A stretch of DNA of 25,285 nt from a virus. A program made the position numbers and the translations under genes. Shown here piece by piece: positions 11,149 through 23,663 of this stretch. The stretch is taken from the IMG/VR virus record IMGVR_UViG_3300028829_002724, positions 1-25,285 of that record; one strand, given 5' to 3'. Within the stretch, counting starts at the first letter, position 1. Each line of letters opens with the position of its first letter. The notes under the pieces were generated by a model. It saw nothing but the letters and a program-made list of their open reading frames with translations, did no database searches and was not told the DNA's origin.

Positions 11149-11918
11149 TATTGTACCTCTACCAAATTAAGAGAAAAAGAATATAAATTCTGAGTATTTA
11201 AAGAATATTCTTGAATATCTCCAGACATCATTACTTTTAATAATGGAGTAGTGAAAACAAGGGTATCTGCTGCTGAAAGAGATTTTTGAAGCGTAGGCAT
11301 ACAATGAATAACTAATTGATGAGTGCCTGCAGGAGTATTTTCATTAGTATTATAAGTAGATGAGGTTGCTACGCGAGTCACCATATATGCTTTTTTATGG
11401 TTAGAATTAGCTGCGTTGAAAGTAAACATATCGCCCGGAAGAGGAGTATTATGAGTAGTTGAATTATAGTAATTAGCGTTACCTAGAGTGGAGTCTCCTT
11501 GTATTGTCATTAATCGAGTTCCTACAGTCTCACTAGATACAGTCTTTAAAACATTAGAGGCGCTCCAAGTAGCAAAAGTAGAGTCTTTTGGCACTCTATT
11601 TTGAGGTAAAGAAATATAGAAATAATTATTGCGAAGTGCATTTCTTTGGAGTAAAAAAGTATAAACAGGGTCAAACTGTTCCCGAGTCATAGGATTATAA
11701 GTAATTTTTATTTTCCATTTATGCGCTGCTACATATCGAGTAAGAATTCTTCCTGAGTTAGTGGAATCTTTAATTCGAGGTTGATCTGAAGTAAGAGAAA
11801 CAGATGCAAACCCCGGGCCCGCTGTTCCGCCGCTAGATGTTGCTAAACTCTGCCCAGCATCTCCTATGGGATAGTTGGGATCAGGTAATACATCTAAATA
11901 ACTAGTAAAAGTTGTCAT
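11148..11918 (-). CDS. Distal tail protein-like, 256 residues
   Basis: This tail protein lies between the tape measure and tail tip genes, where siphoviruses encode the distal tail protein that joins the tube to the tip. Residues of about 65-100 (KWKIKITYNPMTREQFDPVY, then a YFYISLPQNR segment) resemble the beta-rich N-terminal part of small tail-tip proteins. The end (SLNTQNLYSFSLNLVEVQ) is the kind of strand-forming tail that packs in a ring. I see no signal peptide or membrane segment. Both junctions are TAATG stop-start overlaps, so translation is coupled on both sides. The role rests mainly on gene order, since distal tail proteins are poorly conserved; a lambda gpM or gpL-type tip component is an alternative. 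Confidence 0.6.
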   Translation of the reverse strand: MTTFTSYLDVLPDPNYPIGDAGQSLATSSGGTAGPGFASVSLTSDQPRIKDSTNSGRILTRYVAAHKWKIKITYNPMTREQFDPVYTFLLQRNALRNNYFYISLPQNRVPKDSTFATWSASNVLKTVSSETVGTRLMTIQGDSTLGNANYYNSTTHNTPLPGDMFTFNAANSNHKKAYMVTRVATSSTYNTNENTPAGTHQLVIHCMPTLQKSLSAADTLVFTTPLLKVMMSGDIQEYSLNTQNLYSFSLNLVEVQ

Positions 11919-14900
11919 TAGTATCTATTTACTCCTCCAGCTGAAGGGGTAAATACTGATGTATCTACTCCTTCAACAAAGTCTTGACCATAAGAATTTG
12001 CAGCTTGTCGAATCATTCCAATTATATTTCCTCTCTGTTCAACTAACAAATCTTCAACTCCTGACGCATCAATTGTATTAATATTAAAACTTACATTCGT
12101 AGATGTCATAGGAGTGATGTCATCATTTGGTACAATTCGTCCGGGAATTTCGGGTACAAATAGCTCTGGTCCCTGCTCCCCGACCATAAATGCTGTATTT
12201 CCACCTTCTGCTCGATTTCTGTAACCGGAGAAGGCTGGCGTAAAGGCTTCTGGGCCTCCTGTACCGCTTTCTCCTCGGAAATAACCAAGCTCTCCTCGTG
12301 CTGATCTAGATTTTGCTAAGTCTACTGAGTCTCTACGCTGTCCTGCAGTAATAGTTTGAGGGCCTGAAGCAGATACAGAGCCCCCTCCCCCATTATATGT
12401 CATGCTCTGAATAGTTGCTAATTGTTGGGCACCCATTGCAACAACCACAGCAGCCGCGGCAGCAGCAATTGCGGGGCCTACATAAGGAATACCCACCATT
12501 GCCTTATAAGCTTCCATTGCACCTGTGGCTGTTGCCATAATAGTTTGTGCAATCTTCATCTTTTTATCTGCTTCAAAAGCTTTTCGTTTCTCTGCGTCTT
12601 TCTTTTTCTCAAGCTGCGATATTTTTGCAAGACTCTGTTTTGATTTTCCGTCTCGTTTTTTCTCTGCTTCAATTTCTTGGTCTAAAGCTCGAACTCTTTG
12701 CTCCGAAGCGGCTTTTTGTACAGAACCAATTGTTTGAATAATACTCATTGCAGCGCTCATGCCTGCCATTATTTTATCAGCCGCACTTGCTCCTTCGGTG
12801 CCTATAATCTGAAATGCACTCGTAAAAGTTTCGGCTATATTTGCAATGCCACTTGACATTGCGGCCATTAGTTCACCTTCTGGGCCTAATTTTCTAAAGT
12901 CTTCTGCTAAGTTATCAAACGTTGAAATAGCAGTACTAATACTTACTTGTATGTTTTGTGCTTGGGCGATTTGAAGTGCAGCTTGAGCCGCTTCAAGCTC
13001 CTTTGTTAAATCCTCTCCGTCACTAATTCTTTGTCTTAGCCCCTCTAATACGTTTTGGGCATTCTGTACTGCCGCTCCTGCTGCGTCTCGTGCTTGCTGT
13101 CCTGCAAACGCTCCCGGAAGGGAAGAAGACCCAATTCTACTACCAATTTGTTGCGCAGCATTTAGTCGTAATTGAGCTCCTGCAAGTTGAGTTTTAATTT
13201 GAAGTAATTGTTTTTCTCTTTCAAGTTTCTCCCTATCGGCTACTTCTAGATTAGTCTTTAATTGCATTTCGATTGTCATTAATCGAATTTGGTCTGCTCT
13301 TATGCTGTTTTGAAGATTTAGAGAGGTAGCAAGACTGCCAGAAGTAAATGAAGCAGCTGTTTCAGCTATGTTAAGAGCTCTTTGAGCTATATCTATGGCA
13401 TATAGTTTTGCTAAAAATTCGTCTGCGGTCATGCCTGTTGCTTTTAAGGCTTCGTTATAATCTTTTAAAGCTTTTATAGCTGCTTCATTCTGTCCGAGAG
13501 TAGTGAAAGCATTTGAGGTATCTTCAGAAGTACGCTTTAACTCTTCTAAATTACGGATTGCTCCTAGAATATCTCCACCTCCAAGAGTATCTCTTAATTG
13601 CGTACCTATTTCGTCTATTCCTGTCTTCAAAGTCGAGGATCCCGAAACAGCAGCACTTGCAGCAGCTTCAAGTCTTTCTAACTCTTCAAAATTCATATTT
13701 TGTACAGCTCTTTGGTAAGACTCAGAAACACTCCCTAAACCCTCTAAAGCCTCCATTAAAGCTCTGGTTGCTTCTTCTCTATCTTTAGCATTCATTACGA
13801 ATCCAAGAGTCTCAGAATCTGTTAAGCCATCATTTTCATCAAATCCGCCTAAACGCTTTTTATTTATTGCACTAAGAGCAGAAGACACCTGCATACTTTG
13901 TAATGCTTTTGCTACAGAAAGTCCTTTTTTAGCCGCGTCTGTTTCTTCCGACATTCCCGCTACTACATTACTTAGACTTTCTTTCAATACGTCCAAATTA
14001 TCAATATAAGAATTTAGTGCTTCATTAGAAGCTGCAGTAGCTTGTCTACCGTCTTGGAATCCCTTCAAAAACTTACCAAAAGAACTTTCTTCCAACATTT
14101 GGACAAATTTACTTGATTCTGTATTTAAAGGTTTAAATTCTCCCGCTAAATTACTAACTTCAATAGCTCCTTGCCCAAAACCTGCAAAAGAACCTTGTAA
14201 GTTACTTGAAAATTCTATTAAGCCAAAATCTTTTCCAGTAAAAGCATTTAAACTAGATATAAATCCATTTATTTTGTCTACAATATCGTTTACAAAACTA
14301 TCCAAACCACCAAGAACGGTAGAAATCATGTCGCTAAACATCATTTTTACACTTTTAACAACTGTACGCCACCCATTTAGAAAACTATCAATAAACCCAA
14401 AAAATCCGGGAGCAATATAATTTATACCTTTAGCTACAAAATTAAGTACAGTATCAATACCTGCCGCAACAGACCGAATAATGCTAAAAGGAGAGTTAAC
14501 AACAGCCATAACTAATTCTTTTATCATTATAAGAATACCAACTACACCGGCGAGGCGCATTGCACGATCCATTTGTTTGCCCATAAATGCTGCAGCTTTA
14601 CCCGCAGCAAGAAAGGTTTTCGTTCCAAAATTTTTAATAGTTTGAAAGTATATTCTAGCCTTTAATCCTGCTTTGTCCCACATCAAACCTGCTCTCTTAA
14701 AAAAGCCTACATTTGATTGATCCATTTTTGCAAGACTAAGTTTTAAGCTGCGTACCATATCAATATTAACGCCTTGAAAAGTATTTTTAAGAATAGCGCC
14801 GCTTTGTTTATATTGAGCTTCCGCATCTTTCAACATTTTCTTAAGTTGGCCTTTTTGTTGAGGTGTTAATTCTTGACCTTTTGCAACTTTTTGTACTAGT

Positions 14901-16018
14901 GCGCTTCCTCCTGCTTTGTCTCCTTCCTTTAAAATACCTCTTGCTACAGACTTGGCCGAGGCAACTTTTGCATCATCAAGTTTTTTATTTGTTTTTTCTA
15001 TATCTGCTTGAAAGTCTCTTAGGGCGCCCTTAGCGTTATCTAACTTTTCTTTGGAAGCAGTTTCTATGTCTCCAAATTTTTCTTTAATTGCATCCATAGG
15101 GAGTGCAGCTTTACCAATACTAAGAGCCAGTAAGCCGAAAGCGGCTACTGCTGCGGCACCGCTTTTATTTAAAATATTTGCTATGCCTTCGAATACGGGA
15201 AGAATAAATTGAGTAGCACTTTTAATGATATCTTCTAAAGTTTTACTTAATTTTACAAAAGGATTAGTAGCGCCATCCACATCTCCAAAAAGCTCATTTA
15301 ATTGTCTTTGGGTTTCTATAAGAACGGCTTGACTTCTTTGAGCTGCATTGAGTTCGTCTCTATTTCGACCAATAGCATCAGCGTATCGTTGTGTAGCTTC
15401 TTCGAGCCGAAGAGTAATACCTAATTCATCTAGTAATTCTGGTTCAGCTTTTGACGCGCCACGAATTAGACGGTCAAAAGAATCTTGAAAATCACGTCCC
15501 AAAGCTGTCGAAGCTTTTCTAGCGCCTTCTGCAAGATCTTCTAATTGGCTTGGTGAAAAGCCTTTTGCAAGACCAATTGCAGCTGCTTCTCCCGCTTCTC
15601 TAAACCCTAAAAGACCATCACTAGCCTCTCTTAATCTTTGAGTTACAGAACCTAAAGCTGTTCCGGTTTTTTCCGCAAAAGCTACTTGTGATTGTTCGAG
15701 AAGTTTTACATCTGCAGCACGCTTAAAGAAATTATATGCAGCACTTAGAGCAAAAACATTTGAAGCTAAAACAGCATACGCAGGAACTAAACCGCTTCCT
15801 ACTGTTTGACTTTGCTTAGCAAAAGATTTAGTAGTGTTTGCACCAAGCTGAGCAGTGCCTTTTTCTAATTTATTATAGCGATTTCTCTTTTTCGATAACT
15901 CGTCGGTTGAGGTTCCTAATTTATCAGTTTCGGCAGCAGCTTTTTTAGCTTCACTTCCTATTATTGATAAACTACCATCGTCATCAACCTTAATTTTTAA
16001 GTTAATCGAATTAGCCAC
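11918..16018 (-). CDS. Tail tape measure protein, 1366 residues
   Basis: This protein sets tail length and is ejected with the DNA. It is the long Ala/Lys/Glu/Gln-rich helical protein expected directly after the tail assembly chaperones. Likely membrane-active segments lie around residues 485-510 (VVGILIMIKELVMAVV) and 1176-1200 (Ala/Val-rich, containing GPAIAAAAAAVVVAMG). Near residues 1271-1296 is the tape measure C-terminal signature FMVGEQGPELFVP followed by GRIVP. The start is GTG (16018), not ATG, and overlaps the end of the upstream chaperone frame by 8 bases with only a weak AGAG site, so translation is probably coupled. By analogy with T5 (1219 residues, about 180 nm) and lambda, the length suggests a tail of roughly 200 nm. 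Lysozyme or peptidase motifs were not recognised. Confidence 0.95.
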   Translation of the reverse strand: MANSINLKIKVDDDGSLSIIGSEAKKAAAETDKLGTSTDELSKKRNRYNKLEKGTAQLGANTTKSFAKQSQTVGSGLVPAYAVLASNVFALSAAYNFFKRAADVKLLEQSQVAFAEKTGTALGSVTQRLREASDGLLGFREAGEAAAIGLAKGFSPSQLEDLAEGARKASTALGRDFQDSFDRLIRGASKAEPELLDELGITLRLEEATQRYADAIGRNRDELNAAQRSQAVLIETQRQLNELFGDVDGATNPFVKLSKTLEDIIKSATQFILPVFEGIANILNKSGAAAVAAFGLLALSIGKAALPMDAIKEKFGDIETASKEKLDNAKGALRDFQADIEKTNKKLDDAKVASAKSVARGILKEGDKAGGSALVQKVAKGQELTPQQKGQLKKMLKDAEAQYKQSGAILKNTFQGVNIDMVRSLKLSLAKMDQSNVGFFKRAGLMWDKAGLKARIYFQTIKNFGTKTFLAAGKAAAFMGKQMDRAMRLAGVVGILIMIKELVMAVVNSPFSIIRSVAAGIDTVLNFVAKGINYIAPGFFGFIDSFLNGWRTVVKSVKMMFSDMISTVLGGLDSFVNDIVDKINGFISSLNAFTGKDFGLIEFSSNLQGSFAGFGQGAIEVSNLAGEFKPLNTESSKFVQMLEESSFGKFLKGFQDGRQATAASNEALNSYIDNLDVLKESLSNVVAGMSEETDAAKKGLSVAKALQSMQVSSALSAINKKRLGGFDENDGLTDSETLGFVMNAKDREEATRALMEALEGLGSVSESYQRAVQNMNFEELERLEAAASAAVSGSSTLKTGIDEIGTQLRDTLGGGDILGAIRNLEELKRTSEDTSNAFTTLGQNEAAIKALKDYNEALKATGMTADEFLAKLYAIDIAQRALNIAETAASFTSGSLATSLNLQNSIRADQIRLMTIEMQLKTNLEVADREKLEREKQLLQIKTQLAGAQLRLNAAQQIGSRIGSSSLPGAFAGQQARDAAGAAVQNAQNVLEGLRQRISDGEDLTKELEAAQAALQIAQAQNIQVSISTAISTFDNLAEDFRKLGPEGELMAAMSSGIANIAETFTSAFQIIGTEGASAADKIMAGMSAAMSIIQTIGSVQKAASEQRVRALDQEIEAEKKRDGKSKQSLAKISQLEKKKDAEKRKAFEADKKMKIAQTIMATATGAMEAYKAMVGIPYVGPAIAAAAAAVVVAMGAQQLATIQSMTYNGGGGSVSASGPQTITAGQRRDSVDLAKSRSARGELGYFRGESGTGGPEAFTPAFSGYRNRAEGGNTAFMVGEQGPELFVPEIPGRIVPNDDITPMTSTNVSFNINTIDASGVEDLLVEQRGNIIGMIRQAANSYGQDFVEGVDTSVFTPSAGGVNRY

Positions 16019-16400
16019 GCGATTTTCTCTTTAGCTTGTCGTACTCCTTTTTCAGTTGTTCGGAGGACTTTTTTATAGCTCTTGAGTCTAAGAAGGATAA
16101 TATTTCTAAGAAAAACTCTTTATCCTCTATTCCGTAGACTTCTATAAAATATTTTAAATTTGTATAGTCTTTTCCGATATATCCTATTTCTGGATAAATT
16201 CTATCCCCTAAAAGATTGAACGCCTGTACTGCATCGGTTACTATACTTGGAAAATCTTCCCAGCCCGGAGGCATTTCTTCTGGTGCTGGTTCTCTTCCTA
16301 ATTGTTCCATCATCTCAAGATATCTATCTTGAGTCATTCCAGTGTCGCTATTCTGAAGCAGTTTTTCCAGTCTTTTTAGACACTCTTCCTTCTCGTCCAC
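16011..16400 (-). CDS. Tail assembly chaperone, second frame (gpT-like extension)
   Basis: This 129-codon frame overlaps the end of the first chaperone by 53 bases and ends just inside the tape measure start, as gpT does in the lambda G-GT arrangement. The nominal start is GTG (16400) with no recognisable ribosome binding site. Reading is open upstream only to 16412, after a TAG. The frame is +1 relative to the first chaperone, so expression by frameshift (+1 or -2) would give a fusion of about 261 residues. The sequence is charged and helical (DEKEECLKRLEKLLQ at the start, EYDKLKRKSRG at the end), as in other such extensions. The chaperones bind the tape measure and recruit tube subunits; they are not part of the finished tail. 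A separate start at the ATG of MTQDRY (about 16337) is possible. Confidence 0.75.
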   Translation of the reverse strand: MDEKEECLKRLEKLLQNSDTGMTQDRYLEMMEQLGREPAPEEMPPGWEDFPSIVTDAVQAFNLLGDRIYPEIGYIGKDYTNLKYFIEVYGIEDKEFFLEILSFLDSRAIKKSSEQLKKEYDKLKRKSRG

Positions 16401-16797
16401 TACGAAAATTATCTAAATCAAAGACTACCTCATTGAGCCAAGTATCAAATTCTGTAGAGTTAGTTACTAAAACTTCTGCATTTTCTTTTGAGTACTCTAT
16501 TTCTGTTGTAGGATCTTGATCATCCGTATTAATAAGAAGCAAAGTTTCTAAATGCTCAACAGTAAGTCCTTTCCAATTTTTAATGCTTGCTTCTGCGAAC
16601 TCAGTGACAAATTTATCTTCGTCTAAGTCTTCTACAAGTTGTCGAGTTTTTCTATCAAATTTTTGAGTTGTGCATCTTTTGCGAAGAGATGTAAGTTCTT
16701 TTCTTGAAAGATTTGCTACTTCTACTGAAAATCCGGGCAAGCCCGCAAAATCAATCCATGCCGATTTAGTATCGACCATAAGTTTTTTAAGTTCCAT
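16348..16797 (-). CDS. Tail assembly chaperone, first frame (gpG-like), 149 residues
   Basis: This small protein lies just before the tape measure and is overlapped by a second frame, which is the classic position of the gpG-type tail assembly chaperone. The sequence has an N-terminal beta part (KSAWIDFAGLPGFSVEVANL) followed by a helical part (LSRKELTSLRKRC, and VEHLETLLLINT), a composition common in this group. The ribosome binding site is the strongest in the window: GAGGAGGT (16810-16803), 5 bases before the ATG and overlapping the stop of the preceding tail gene. This fits a need for many copies. A small share of ribosomes probably shift frame near its end to make the extended form. Confidence 0.8.
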   Translation of the reverse strand: MELKKLMVDTKSAWIDFAGLPGFSVEVANLSRKELTSLRKRCTTQKFDRKTRQLVEDLDEDKFVTEFAEASIKNWKGLTVEHLETLLLINTDDQDPTTEIEYSKENAEVLVTNSTEFDTWLNEVVFDLDNFRSGREGRVSKKTGKTASE

Positions 16798-16802
16798 TTA
16801 TG

Positions 16803-16810
16803 ACCTCCTC
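16803..16810 (-). promoter_or_regulatory. Near-perfect ribosome binding site of the chaperone
   Basis: GAGGAGGT matches the 16S anti-Shine-Dalgarno over eight bases and lies 5 bases before the ATG at 16797. It also overlaps the TGA of the preceding gene, so it can capture ribosomes that have just terminated. It is the best such site seen in the window. Confidence 0.85.
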
Positions 16811-17699
16811 AGTCAGTGTCGTAATTAAGTTTTGTTGCAAAATTGGAAGGATATAATGGTGAATACCTCCAATCATAGTTTCGTAAAAATACAGGAGAGC
16901 CAGTATTTACTCTAGTTGTATAAGAAACATCCCCTAAAAAATGAATACCTCTAAAGGTGTTACTTAAAGCACTAAAATCCCCGCTTCCTGCTTTTAGGTC
17001 AAGAGAGGCGTTTGCCTTAAAATCTGACGCATACGATGTTGTTGTATCTGTTAAATATTGAGCAATTGATCCCGCTAATATTCTTTTAGATAAGGTGAAC
17101 CCCGATGGATACATCGTGGTTGCAGATATAGCGTTATTTACAGTTTTATACCCTGTCCATTGTATGTCATTTTGAAGTTCCATACTGACACTCACAACAT
17201 CCGTCATAAGAGAAGGACCATCTAAATAAATTTCCACTTTTGGAATAATATAAGTTTTATCTGTAAATGCACTGCTTGGAGTAAATCCGCTTACTCCTCT
17301 ATAAAGCTGTGCCGCTTCACCCGAAATCTGTAGAGCCAGGGGACGAGATCGCTCGATAACGTAATTCCCGGTTGTCATTACTGATTTTCGAAGGCGGTAA
17401 GTATCTGCCTGTGTTTTAATATATAAATCAAACTCTGTCACATCGACTAATAAAGTTTGTAATATAGTATAGTTATCTTCTGCCAGTAAAGGTACTTCAA
17501 AAGAAAAATTCGCAACGTTAGCTGCATTTATAACACTTTCTTCAAACAGGTCACTAGGAGAATGAATGGTAGCAACTGGATAACTTTGTTCAGAAAACGT
17601 CTGACTAAAAGTTATATTACTTACATATATTCTATATGTTGTACCCCCGCTAACTACATAAACTTCTACATCTTCTTTAAAGTTATATATTGACGGCAT
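16809..17699 (-). CDS. Tail protein, possibly a second tube-like protein, 296 residues
   Basis: The specific family is not recognised. The protein is beta-rich, with no signal peptide, helix-rich part or membrane segment. It opens with EDVEVYVVSGGTTYRIYVSN and ITFSQTFSEQSYPVATIHSP, which parallels the opening layout of the tail tube protein just upstream (a short strand, then a 'FSQ' strand, then a switch segment). Its location between the major tube gene and the chaperones suggests a minor tube-like subunit, perhaps at one end of the tube, or a cap. It is the first gene after the terminator and consensus promoter at 17748-17820. Its ribosome binding site (around AGAGTGA) is modest. Role by position and weak resemblance only. 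Confidence 0.6.
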   Translation of the reverse strand: MPSIYNFKEDVEVYVVSGGTTYRIYVSNITFSQTFSEQSYPVATIHSPSDLFEESVINAANVANFSFEVPLLAEDNYTILQTLLVDVTEFDLYIKTQADTYRLRKSVMTTGNYVIERSRPLALQISGEAAQLYRGVSGFTPSSAFTDKTYIIPKVEIYLDGPSLMTDVVSVSMELQNDIQWTGYKTVNNAISATTMYPSGFTLSKRILAGSIAQYLTDTTTSYASDFKANASLDLKAGSGDFSALSNTFRGIHFLGDVSYTTRVNTGSPVFLRNYDWRYSPLYPSNFATKLNYDTD

Positions 17700-21672: not shown

Positions 21673-21747
21673 TTAAGCTTCGTGATCAATCTTGATTACA
21701 GGCTCGTTACCTGCACCGTCACCGGCCAGAATTTCTTCAAAACCAAG
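21673..21747 (-). other. Alternative (-1 frame) C-terminus of the capsid protein
   Basis: From codon 639 (His) of the capsid gene a -1 reading gives 24 residues, starting LGFEEILAGDGAGNEPV and ending IDHEA, then TAA 12 bases before the terminator stem. This ending looks like that of HK97-type capsids ('V-x-A-x-x-L-G-F...A-G-D-G-A-G-N') and uses the same GGT, GAA, AAC, CTG codons as the rest of the gene. The in-frame ending (LVLKKFWPVTVQVTSL) does neither. A missing base near 21744-21750 would explain it. Confidence 0.65.
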
Positions 21748-23054
21748 TGACAAGCTACGATGACACGACGCTGGTTCATGACTTCGTAATCTTGCTCAAC
21801 AGTTACACCACGGAGTCGAGGCATAACATAGTTACGAGTGTAACAAGCGAATGCAGCAGGAGCAGCAGCTACTTCTGCGGGGAACTCTTCGGATACGATT
21901 ACGGGCGAACCGTAAACAGCACCGATAGTACCAACAACTCGAGCGGCCAAATCAGAACCAACTTCGTCCAGAGTCTGGAAGTTGCTGTCATTCAACAGAT
22001 CAAAGTAGCTTTGCTGGCTAACAATGTAAGCCATATCGCTGGGCGAAAGACCATACTTACCCATTGCTTCACGAGCGCCTAACAGCATGGCTGAAGTTAA
22101 GCGAGTGCCTGCAGCCAAAGAGAAGGTACCGGGATCATATGCAGCTGCATAGTTGTCCAAGCCAGAAATAGTACCGTTACCATTGATGATAACATCCTCT
22201 ACTGCACGACCATGTGCGCGAGCAACTGACTCAACCAGCATAGGCATCAAGTTAATGAGTACCTGCTCGTCTACGTCGTTGTTCATAAAGGTGGTTGATA
22301 CCAAACGATAAGCGTTGAGAACAACTTGCTTAGCGTTATACTGGTTAGCAGTTACCTGGGGACGGTTCTCCAAGTTTCCTGAAGTAGCGTCGGCTGCCCA
22401 AGCAGCTTTACCAGCATCAGTTTGGATTGGCAATACAGTTGCACCACCGTTGACAGGAAGCTCACGGAACAATCGAGCTACTTTCAGCTCATTCATGATT
22501 TCCTTTTCGATCAGTGAAGAAACTTCCTGGTCGATGTCAGCAGCGTTAGCAGCGTAGTTTACGCCAGCCTTCTCTTGCAAGTCACGTGCAAAATCAGTGT
22601 CCCAACCCTTACGAGTCATAACACCCAGCATGTGAGCAGTTACAAAGTCATTGCCCCACTTAGCAATATCAGACTTCTCAGCCCGATCGCCAAATACACG
22701 CTTGGACTCACGCATTTTAGAGATTTCGTCAGATTTCTCTTCGAGGTCCTTCTTGTACTTAGCCAGAGTCTCTTCCATATCGCTATTACGCTTATTCAGA
22801 TCCTCTTGTACGTCAGCCAACAGTCGCTCAGTACCAGATTCGATACCAGTAGTGATTGCAGACTTGACTTCTTCTTCTTGAGCAGCTTTTTCAGCAGCTT
22901 CTTGAACTGCCTTCTCTTCTGCTTCTTGGGCTGCCTTTTCTTCGACAGCTTTCGTCTCAGCTTGCTTCATAGCGATCTTAGCAGCAGTCTCCTCTGCTAC
23001 TTTCTTCGCAAAAGCTTCCAAGTCGATTTCGGGAGTTTTTACTTCTTCCGACAT
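21696..23054 (-). CDS. Nested scaffold-major capsid protein from an internal start, 452 residues
   Basis: ATG at 23054 is in frame as codon 204 of the protease-capsid fusion (EIK-MSEEVK). AGGAG (23065-23061) lies 6 bases upstream, an ideal site and much better than that of the full-length start. Initiation here makes scaffold plus capsid without the protease, exactly the part HK97 encodes as a separate gene. This would supply hundreds of capsid subunits and only a few protease-bearing fusions, similar in principle to the nested C/Nu3 genes of lambda. The call rests on the start signals and domain boundary. If the frameshift at its end is corrected, the product ends at 21673. Confidence 0.75.
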   Translation of the reverse strand: MSEEVKTPEIDLEAFAKKVAEETAAKIAMKQAETKAVEEKAAQEAEEKAVQEAAEKAAQEEEVKSAITTGIESGTERLLADVQEDLNKRNSDMEETLAKYKKDLEEKSDEISKMRESKRVFGDRAEKSDIAKWGNDFVTAHMLGVMTRKGWDTDFARDLQEKAGVNYAANAADIDQEVSSLIEKEIMNELKVARLFRELPVNGGATVLPIQTDAGKAAWAADATSGNLENRPQVTANQYNAKQVVLNAYRLVSTTFMNNDVDEQVLINLMPMLVESVARAHGRAVEDVIINGNGTISGLDNYAAAYDPGTFSLAAGTRLTSAMLLGAREAMGKYGLSPSDMAYIVSQQSYFDLLNDSNFQTLDEVGSDLAARVVGTIGAVYGSPVIVSEEFPAEVAAAPAAFACYTRNYVMPRLRGVTVEQDYEVMNQRRVIVACHLVLKKFWPVTVQVTSL

Positions 23055-23663
23055 TTTGATCTCCTGTTTAGCGGATTTTTCCGCTTCGTCCGGTGTTTCA
23101 CTAGCTATAAATGAATTTTCATCCTTAGCCAGAGACTGACCGGCTAGATCTACACGATTGGTGAAAGTTTTCTTGAATTCATTGTACTCATCCATAGAGT
23201 CAAATGACTTCGCCAGAGAAAAAGTTGCTGCTTGATTACAAGGTACCGATACAACTGATACTTCAAACAACTCAGCATCCTTAATCTTTAATCCGTCAGT
23301 TTCCGATAGGTAATCAGCATCCTTGACTCGGAAACCAACAGAAAATGCTCCAAGAATGCCTTCTTTTACTAATTGCGCCACATGATCAGGCGCGGATTTT
23401 GAAATTTTAGCCTTTAGTTCAAGACCATTTTCAGTGACTTTAAGTCCTGTGGCTCTACCAATAGGCTTATTATAATCATGATTGAAAAGAATAATAGGGT
23501 TCTTTTCAAAATTGCGAAGTCCACCTTTTGTCCAAGCTTCTGCCATAATAACATCATTTGCACGATCCTCATCATGAGTACTTGCCATACCGCAGATATG
23601 AACCCCTCCGTCATCTTCGTCCAGAGCTTTAAAAGTAGATGTAAGATTAAAAATCTTTTCCAT
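21696..23663 (-). CDS. Prohead protease - scaffold - major capsid fusion, 655 residues
   Basis: One frame encodes three parts. Residues 1-150 are an HK97-type S78 prohead protease: His62 in FNHDY, Ser108 in GAFSVGF and Glu134 in ELFEVSVVSVP are the expected catalytic positions. Residues of about 204-320 are an Ala/Glu/Lys-rich coiled coil, the scaffolding delta-like domain. Residues of about 330-655 are the HK97-fold capsid, with VEDVIINGNGTISGL, YIVSQQSYFDLL and YGSPVIVSEEFP. Cleavage probably occurs near residues 318-332. An internal ATG (codon 204) with a strong ribosome binding site should also give the scaffold-capsid part alone. The gene starts in a TAATG overlap with only a weak site. 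The last 16 codons look out of frame: a -1 shift at codon 639 restores a normal capsid end. Codon use is more GC-rich than in nearby genes, as expected for the most abundant protein. Confidence 0.92.
   Translation of the reverse strand: MEKIFNLTSTFKALDEDDGGVHICGMASTHDEDRANDVIMAEAWTKGGLRNFEKNPIILFNHDYNKPIGRATGLKVTENGLELKAKISKSAPDHVAQLVKEGILGAFSVGFRVKDADYLSETDGLKIKDAELFEVSVVSVPCNQAATFSLAKSFDSMDEYNEFKKTFTNRVDLAGQSLAKDENSFIASETPDEAEKSAKQEIKMSEEVKTPEIDLEAFAKKVAEETAAKIAMKQAETKAVEEKAAQEAEEKAVQEAAEKAAQEEEVKSAITTGIESGTERLLADVQEDLNKRNSDMEETLAKYKKDLEEKSDEISKMRESKRVFGDRAEKSDIAKWGNDFVTAHMLGVMTRKGWDTDFARDLQEKAGVNYAANAADIDQEVSSLIEKEIMNELKVARLFRELPVNGGATVLPIQTDAGKAAWAADATSGNLENRPQVTANQYNAKQVVLNAYRLVSTTFMNNDVDEQVLINLMPMLVESVARAHGRAVEDVIINGNGTISGLDNYAAAYDPGTFSLAAGTRLTSAMLLGAREAMGKYGLSPSDMAYIVSQQSYFDLLNDSNFQTLDEVGSDLAARVVGTIGAVYGSPVIVSEEFPAEVAAAPAAFACYTRNYVMPRLRGVTVEQDYEVMNQRRVIVACHLVLKKFWPVTVQVTSL
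23061..23065 (-). promoter_or_regulatory. Internal ribosome binding site of the capsid
   Basis: AGGAG, 6 bases before the ATG at 23054, inside the linker between the protease and the scaffold coiled coil. It falls at the one place where a start would make biological sense, which argues against chance. Confidence 0.8.

Follow-up and report, generated by a model that had tools for sequence, protein, structure and literature searches.

Tail assembly chaperones (TACs) of various phages are produced with −1, −2, or +1 frameshifts, with +1 very likely in HSTV-2, and the roles of the G and T parts in phage lambda have been described (Atkins 2016; PMC5009743). A TTT-CGn site has been proposed for HF1-group haloviruses (Dyall-Smith 2020; PMC7230728), and the same P-site/A-site motif occurs in eukaryotic RNA viruses using 80S ribosomes: the +1 shift at UUU_CGU that yields influenza PA-X is proven, with a tRNA-Phe UUU-to-UUC logic, a junction peptide, and the prediction of a UUU_C site class (Firth 2012; PMC3498833), and amalgaviruses have UUU_CGN, in which CGN may act other than via tRNA availability (Nibert 2016; PMC5052127). 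The chaperone of phage Sugarland, like that of T5, was announced as having no predicted frameshift signal (PMC6256483). Here we describe the chaperone gene pair of a marine phage, in a virus record of 25,285 bases (IMGVR_UViG_3300028829_002724; the window, that is, the whole stretch analyzed), whose minus strand carries a T5-like siphophage structural module (Table 1). The long form of this lambda G/GT-type chaperone is very probably made by a programmed +1 frameshift at UUU_CGN, a predicted signal that is conserved across T5-like phages. What is new is the UUU_CGN +1 signal in T5-like chaperones together with a flip of shift direction among their relatives; the motif itself was already known.

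The case is carried by sequence comparison, namely by the register of the overlap, the invariance of the site, the handover of purifying selection there, and the families of both domains, and from it we infer the slip mechanism, its efficiency and, by homology, the function of the pair. The second open reading frame (ORF) overlaps the first out of frame, as in G/GT-type pairs, lying in +1 (equivalently −2) relative to frame 0 and opening at 16412 after a TAG at 16415-16413, and its stop ends at 16011. The −1 frame shuts after four codons, so the window does not show the canonical arrangement, a −1 register with a heptamer, by which lambda and HK97-type chaperones shift. The original prediction, which placed the overlap in +1 or −2 and not −1, had the second frame open only from 16412, and saw no ribosome binding site (RBS) at its GTG (16400), is borne out on each count, there being no Shine-Dalgarno (SD) sequence at the GTG. 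We fetched 80 relatives for the first ORF, 78 for the second, 80 via a divergent member, and six from genome assemblies, plus cultured T5-like phages from GenBank. All 79 of the complete-gene IMG/VR loci in the first-ORF set are in the +1 register and none in −1, as is every intact relative in the window's clade and among the T5-likes, and judged from these comparisons the register in the window is not due to chance.

Every clade tested has its first ORF assigned to phrog_313 (Tail assembly chaperone). An AlphaFold model of its N-domain (pLDDT 88.6) matches the tape measure chaperone of phage Shivani (TMq 0.92, E=5e-15) and other TACs including Mu FS-gp41, with weak Protein Data Bank matches to YqbN and the HK97 TAC (2ob9). 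The order of tail tube genes, chaperone pair, and tape measure protein is also that of G/GT-type systems. By homology the pair would act as a G/GT-type tail assembly chaperone. On the lambda model, the tape measure protein would be the binding partner of the G part, and the tail tube protein that of the T part.

Comparison of the shift window over relatives, as had been proposed, singles out one slip codon. TTT CGN stands in frame 0, within an uninterrupted +1 frame, in 130 of 132 distinct loci, which places the site in the UUU_CGN class and selects TTT_C at 16407-16404, the lead candidate from the outset (tRNA-Phe moving from UUU to UUC). TTTCG is invariant in 118 uncultured-clade, mostly marine loci anchored on the site. 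On a tree from which the nine codons preceding the site were left out, parsimony counts no third-base changes at the slip Phe codon, whereas the third base of two further conserved Phe codons close by changed 8 and 5 times. Across 137 loci, a set that includes a few contigs fetched twice, the A-site codon is CGT (109), CGC (20), CGA (6), or CAC (2) and never CGG. At Phe-Arg pairs in other genes of these phages TTT-CGN is under-used (41 observed versus 83 expected), a count for which contexts were deduplicated but are phylogenetically not independent.

In 81 of the 137 loci the +1 frame is not open before −5, the earliest frame-0 stop is at +6, and Vibrio phage 70E34-3 reads AAC TTT CGT TAA; the shift therefore occurs within the three codons AAY TTT CGN. 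Within this common window only TTT_C both is invariant and permits re-pairing of tRNA-Phe from UUU to UUC. The AAY and CGN codons are also inside it, and a +1 slip could be imagined on either (AAY_U or CGN_N), but the AAY position varies (ACT, TCT, TCC, ACC, TAC, CGA) and re-pairs poorly and the CGN third base varies, with CAC also found there, such that only UUU_C is invariant with full re-pairing, and we give a slip on an adjacent codon scarcely any credence. Two other sites suggested earlier fail on the same comparison: AAA_A at 16377 is replaced in relatives (AGA AAG, AAA CCG, GGA TCG, CAA CAG), the GAA codon (16392) proposed for a −2 slip is not conserved, and both lie past the frame-0 stop in T5-likes. 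A Mu-type −2 slip gives the same net register as +1, and the joined coding sequence (CDS) in the Shivani record encodes 277 amino acids (aa), the length expected for −2, rather than the 276 that +1 would give. However, to re-pair by −2 from UUU, tRNA-Phe needs ACU, AUU, CUU, or CCU, all with a first-base mismatch, so that base pairing excludes a Mu-like shift at the site, and no other −2 site is conserved, making this route exceedingly improbable. A stop-codon-dependent shift was rejected, as the frame-0 stop comes 6 to 90 nt after TTT and the A site is CGN, and so was slippage during transcription, the site having a run of just 3 to 4 T residues. Dinucleotide shuffling in the +1 group gave no signal of an adjacent 3′ stimulatory structure right after the slip (mean z −0.12), and synonymous resampling after the slip gave a mild, broad structure signal (z about −0.9).

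Purifying selection changes frame at the same codon. Using 915 pairwise comparisons among 101 representatives, the ratio of nonsynonymous to synonymous polymorphism (pN/pS) upstream (−60 to 0) equals 0.12 for frame 0 against 1.66 for +1, and downstream (+6 to +51) the values are 1.41 and 0.42, respectively. Constraint on frame 0 lasts until TTT and then ceases, and the +1 frame is constrained directly after TTT, some 60 nt ahead of the first commonly present ATG, and independent initiation of the second ORF is therefore disfavored. Such initiation, whether at an internal start or by translational coupling with the overlap incidental, is implied by most deposited T5-like GenBank records, which show two separate CDSs with a gap, and the Sugarland record annotates an RBS for the second gene; moreover, 84 of the 130 loci have ATG as +1-frame codon 22 past the slip. 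Nevertheless, in 87 of the 130 loci, the window among them, the first 40 codons of the second frame offer no start preceded by a 4-nt SD, in contrast to the first gene, which has an SD in all 130, and several relatives encode Ile, Leu, or Phe where the ATG (codon 22-26) would be, leaving no conserved start. Independent initiation also leaves the invariant TTT unexplained, and we consider it very unlikely.

With a programmed +1 shift, most ribosomes would read through AAU UUU CGU and halt at the TAG at 16350, giving a 149-aa short form. In the remaining ribosomes the P-site tRNA-Phe would move from UUU to UUC, with the C at 16404 skipped, and the predicted product is a fusion with the T-like domain of 131 aa to the Phe (16407-16405) plus 130 aa, which agrees by computation with the length of about 261 residues given beforehand. 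Several points weigh against this interpretation. One contig (IMGVR_UViG_3300028829_004816, sampled as L137 and L235) keeps the +1 register having lost the site by a deletion of ∼48 nt, for which the candidate explanations are that the phage is defective, that the assembly is wrong, or that the shift takes place elsewhere (TTT_G); two loci carry UUU_CAC (Phe-His) in place of UUU_CGN, and are natural A-site variants; conservation of the G at +4 could come partly from coding in both frames; and the fusion protein itself is a prediction from sequence. The deletion in L137 accounts for one of the two exceptions among the 132 loci, and the other is a record of Aeromonas phage AhP_Mru1 with a broken ORF. 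We note that the chaperone region of the AhP_Mru1 record is full of stops, with tiny ORFs annotated on both strands, and is probably low-quality sequence.

Among the closest known systems are the T5-like phages (Demerecviridae), whose T5.143 and T5.142 are the same gene pair (phrog_313 and phrog_3914) with a TTT CGN site and the +1 register, although the window protein is at most 41% identical to theirs and their frame-0 stop comes 2 to 10 codons after TTT. T5 (AY543070) and Sugarland (MG459987) both have ACT TTT CGT with the +1 frame open, and TTT CGT is also present in Shivani (KP143763); the first two records annotate two separate genes. The motif, present in both T5 and Sugarland, contradicts the announced absence of a signal, at least as a predicted one. 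No description of a T5 +1 signal was found in the open-licence literature, so an earlier report is possible. For T5 the predicted +1 junction peptide is DNAVMLMQNSAAFDSWINQTVFHLDTF-VAQK (..HLDTF-VAQK). T5 is a classic model phage, and its family, recorded as having no signal, carries a +1 motif that searches for −1 sites do not look for; one exact fusion protein is thus predicted for hundreds of T5-like genomes annotated with two genes. These phages also offer a tractable bacterial system for the open recoding question of why an A-site CGN promotes +1 slippage of UUU.

Among more distant systems, halovirus HF2, checked here, has AAG TTT CGC AGA TAG at the end of its tail chaperone, in the +1 register as in the window. 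The HF1 group and HSTV-2 are, however, archaeal myoviruses, and the HF2 chaperone belongs to PHROGs 14268 and 12163, which argues for motif reuse and not for shown homology. Influenza A PA-X (UCC_UUU_CGU) and the amalgaviruses share the motif, but the E-site codon in the phages here is AAY, ACY, or UCY and not only UCC. Mu (−2) and Listeria phage PSA (+1) were initially cited as the exceptions to −1 shifting in chaperones, and both do have non −1 programmed shifts in morphogenesis genes. The +1 shift of PSA is real, but it serves the capsid and tail-shaft genes, where it occurs at CCC and in one case beside a stop codon, rather than a chaperone (PMC5009743); HSTV-2 and the HF1-group haloviruses are closer chaperone precedents (PMC5009743, PMC7230728).

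Relatives found through the divergent member (L173) fall into two registers, and in 54 distinct loci the second ORF is in −1. The heptamers of this sister clade are A_AAU_UUU (34), G_GGA_AAC (17), A_AAU_UUC (2), and C_AAU_UUU (1), of which 53 are canonical −1 heptamers, and they occupy the same Asn-Phe codons as the UUU_CGN site (window −4 to +6). The second domains are homologous across registers, with 22 of 22 −1 representatives (second ORF >60 aa) matching the T domain of the window, 19 at E<1e-3. A single change of direction suffices on an N-domain tree (64 rows, sequence up to the site), in which a branch with support 99/92 separates the −1 clade from the rest. Under midpoint rooting the +1 members among T5-likes and Vibrio phages fall outside, a placement suggesting that +1 is older, although the root is not established. 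The family is thus a natural experiment in which shift direction changed at the same codons of one gene.

The uncultured clade has two further conserved elements. The GAGGU element upstream of the slip codon has GAG in all 118 loci, although 30% of the Glu codons in these genes are GAG (GAA being usual), and its Glu codon shows no changes, compared to 14 at another Glu codon; the element is absent from T5-likes. It was rejected as an RBS for a +1-frame TTG located 5 nt on, as codon −3 (TTA or CTA) followed by G puts a TAG straight into that frame in most loci. It was rejected also as a prfB-type SD stimulator, as its spacing of 19 nt to UUU falls outside the known ranges of such stimulators. 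Downstream, the hairpin window (+67 to +103) has a mean z of −2.84 versus synonymous-codon resampling in uncultured-clade representatives. Relatives carry hairpins in a conserved place, roughly +66 to +97, which overlap or adjoin the +1-frame ATG shortly after the frame-0 stop. Their stems are 4 to 11 bp long and differ in sequence between loci, and these hairpins could hide an internal AUG or slow ribosomes; in T5-likes a hairpin near +70 is not enriched.

These observations can be joined into a single reading that we hold tentatively, as possible rather than probable. Within one chaperone family, shift direction would have switched between +1 and −1 without leaving the Asn-Phe codons, UUU_CGN being swapped for A_AAU_UUU or G_GGA_AAC and the second ORF changing register to compensate. 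The UUU_CGN motif would shift bacterial, archaeal, and eukaryotic ribosomes alike, with the A-site CGN acting other than through tRNA scarcity. The uncultured clade would have added helpers, GAGGU 20 to 24 nt upstream and a hairpin ∼70 nt downstream, the latter perhaps hiding the internal AUG or queuing ribosomes.

Table 1. Positions of the chaperone pair, its predicted frameshift elements, and flanking genes in the window
Feature	Positions	Strand	Evidence or remarks
P-site slip codon TTT (Phe)	16405..16407	−	Invariant in 118/118; 0 parsimony changes of third base
A-site codon CGT; C at 16404 would be skipped by the +1 shift	16402..16404	−	CG invariant in 118/118
SD-like (GAGGU) element GAG GTA GTC TTT, 24-13 nt upstream of slip codon, 19 nt to UUU	16420..16431	−	Synonymously frozen in 118 relatives
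Hairpin CTCAAGAT-agat-ATCTTGAG, 74-93 nt downstream of slip codon, beside +1-frame ATG	16314..16333	−	Structure scan of uncultured-clade representatives
TAC N-domain ORF (lambda gpG-like; T5.143 homologue), 149 aa	16348..16797	−	ATG 16797, stop TAG 16350-16348; phrog_313 Tail assembly chaperone, E=1.2e-18; AlphaFold model
+1-frame ORF, T-like domain (T5.142 homologue), 130 aa from slip	16011..16412	−	phrog_3914 tail assembly chaperone, E=2.2e-22; pN/pS 0.42 in own frame over +6..+51
Predicted frameshift fusion, 261 aa, junction ..FDLDNF-VVDEKEE..	16011..16797	−	Computed; inferred product
Tape measure protein, directly downstream of chaperone pair	11918..16018	−	phrog_3779 tail length tape measure protein, E=1.1e-73
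Baseplate tail tube protein (p140-like), upstream of chaperone	16809..17699	−	Pfam PF23779 Baseplate_Tube_p140, 47.4 bits, above own cut-off; phrog_3889

The structural module codes for a portal, a protease-capsid ORF (by inspection), a tail terminator, a major tail protein, the baseplate tube, the chaperone pair, the tape measure, and a distal tail protein. The protease-capsid ORF (21696-23663, minus strand; 655 aa) has, by eye, a prohead protease-like N-terminus and a capsid-like C-terminus in one frame. We also note that contigs of this phage group (L177 to L182) are found in GTDB bins of Halieaceae, Betaproteobacteria, Neomarinimicrobiota, and Bacteroidetes; as these are unrelated phyla, they are likely binned phage contigs and the bins are not informative on the host.
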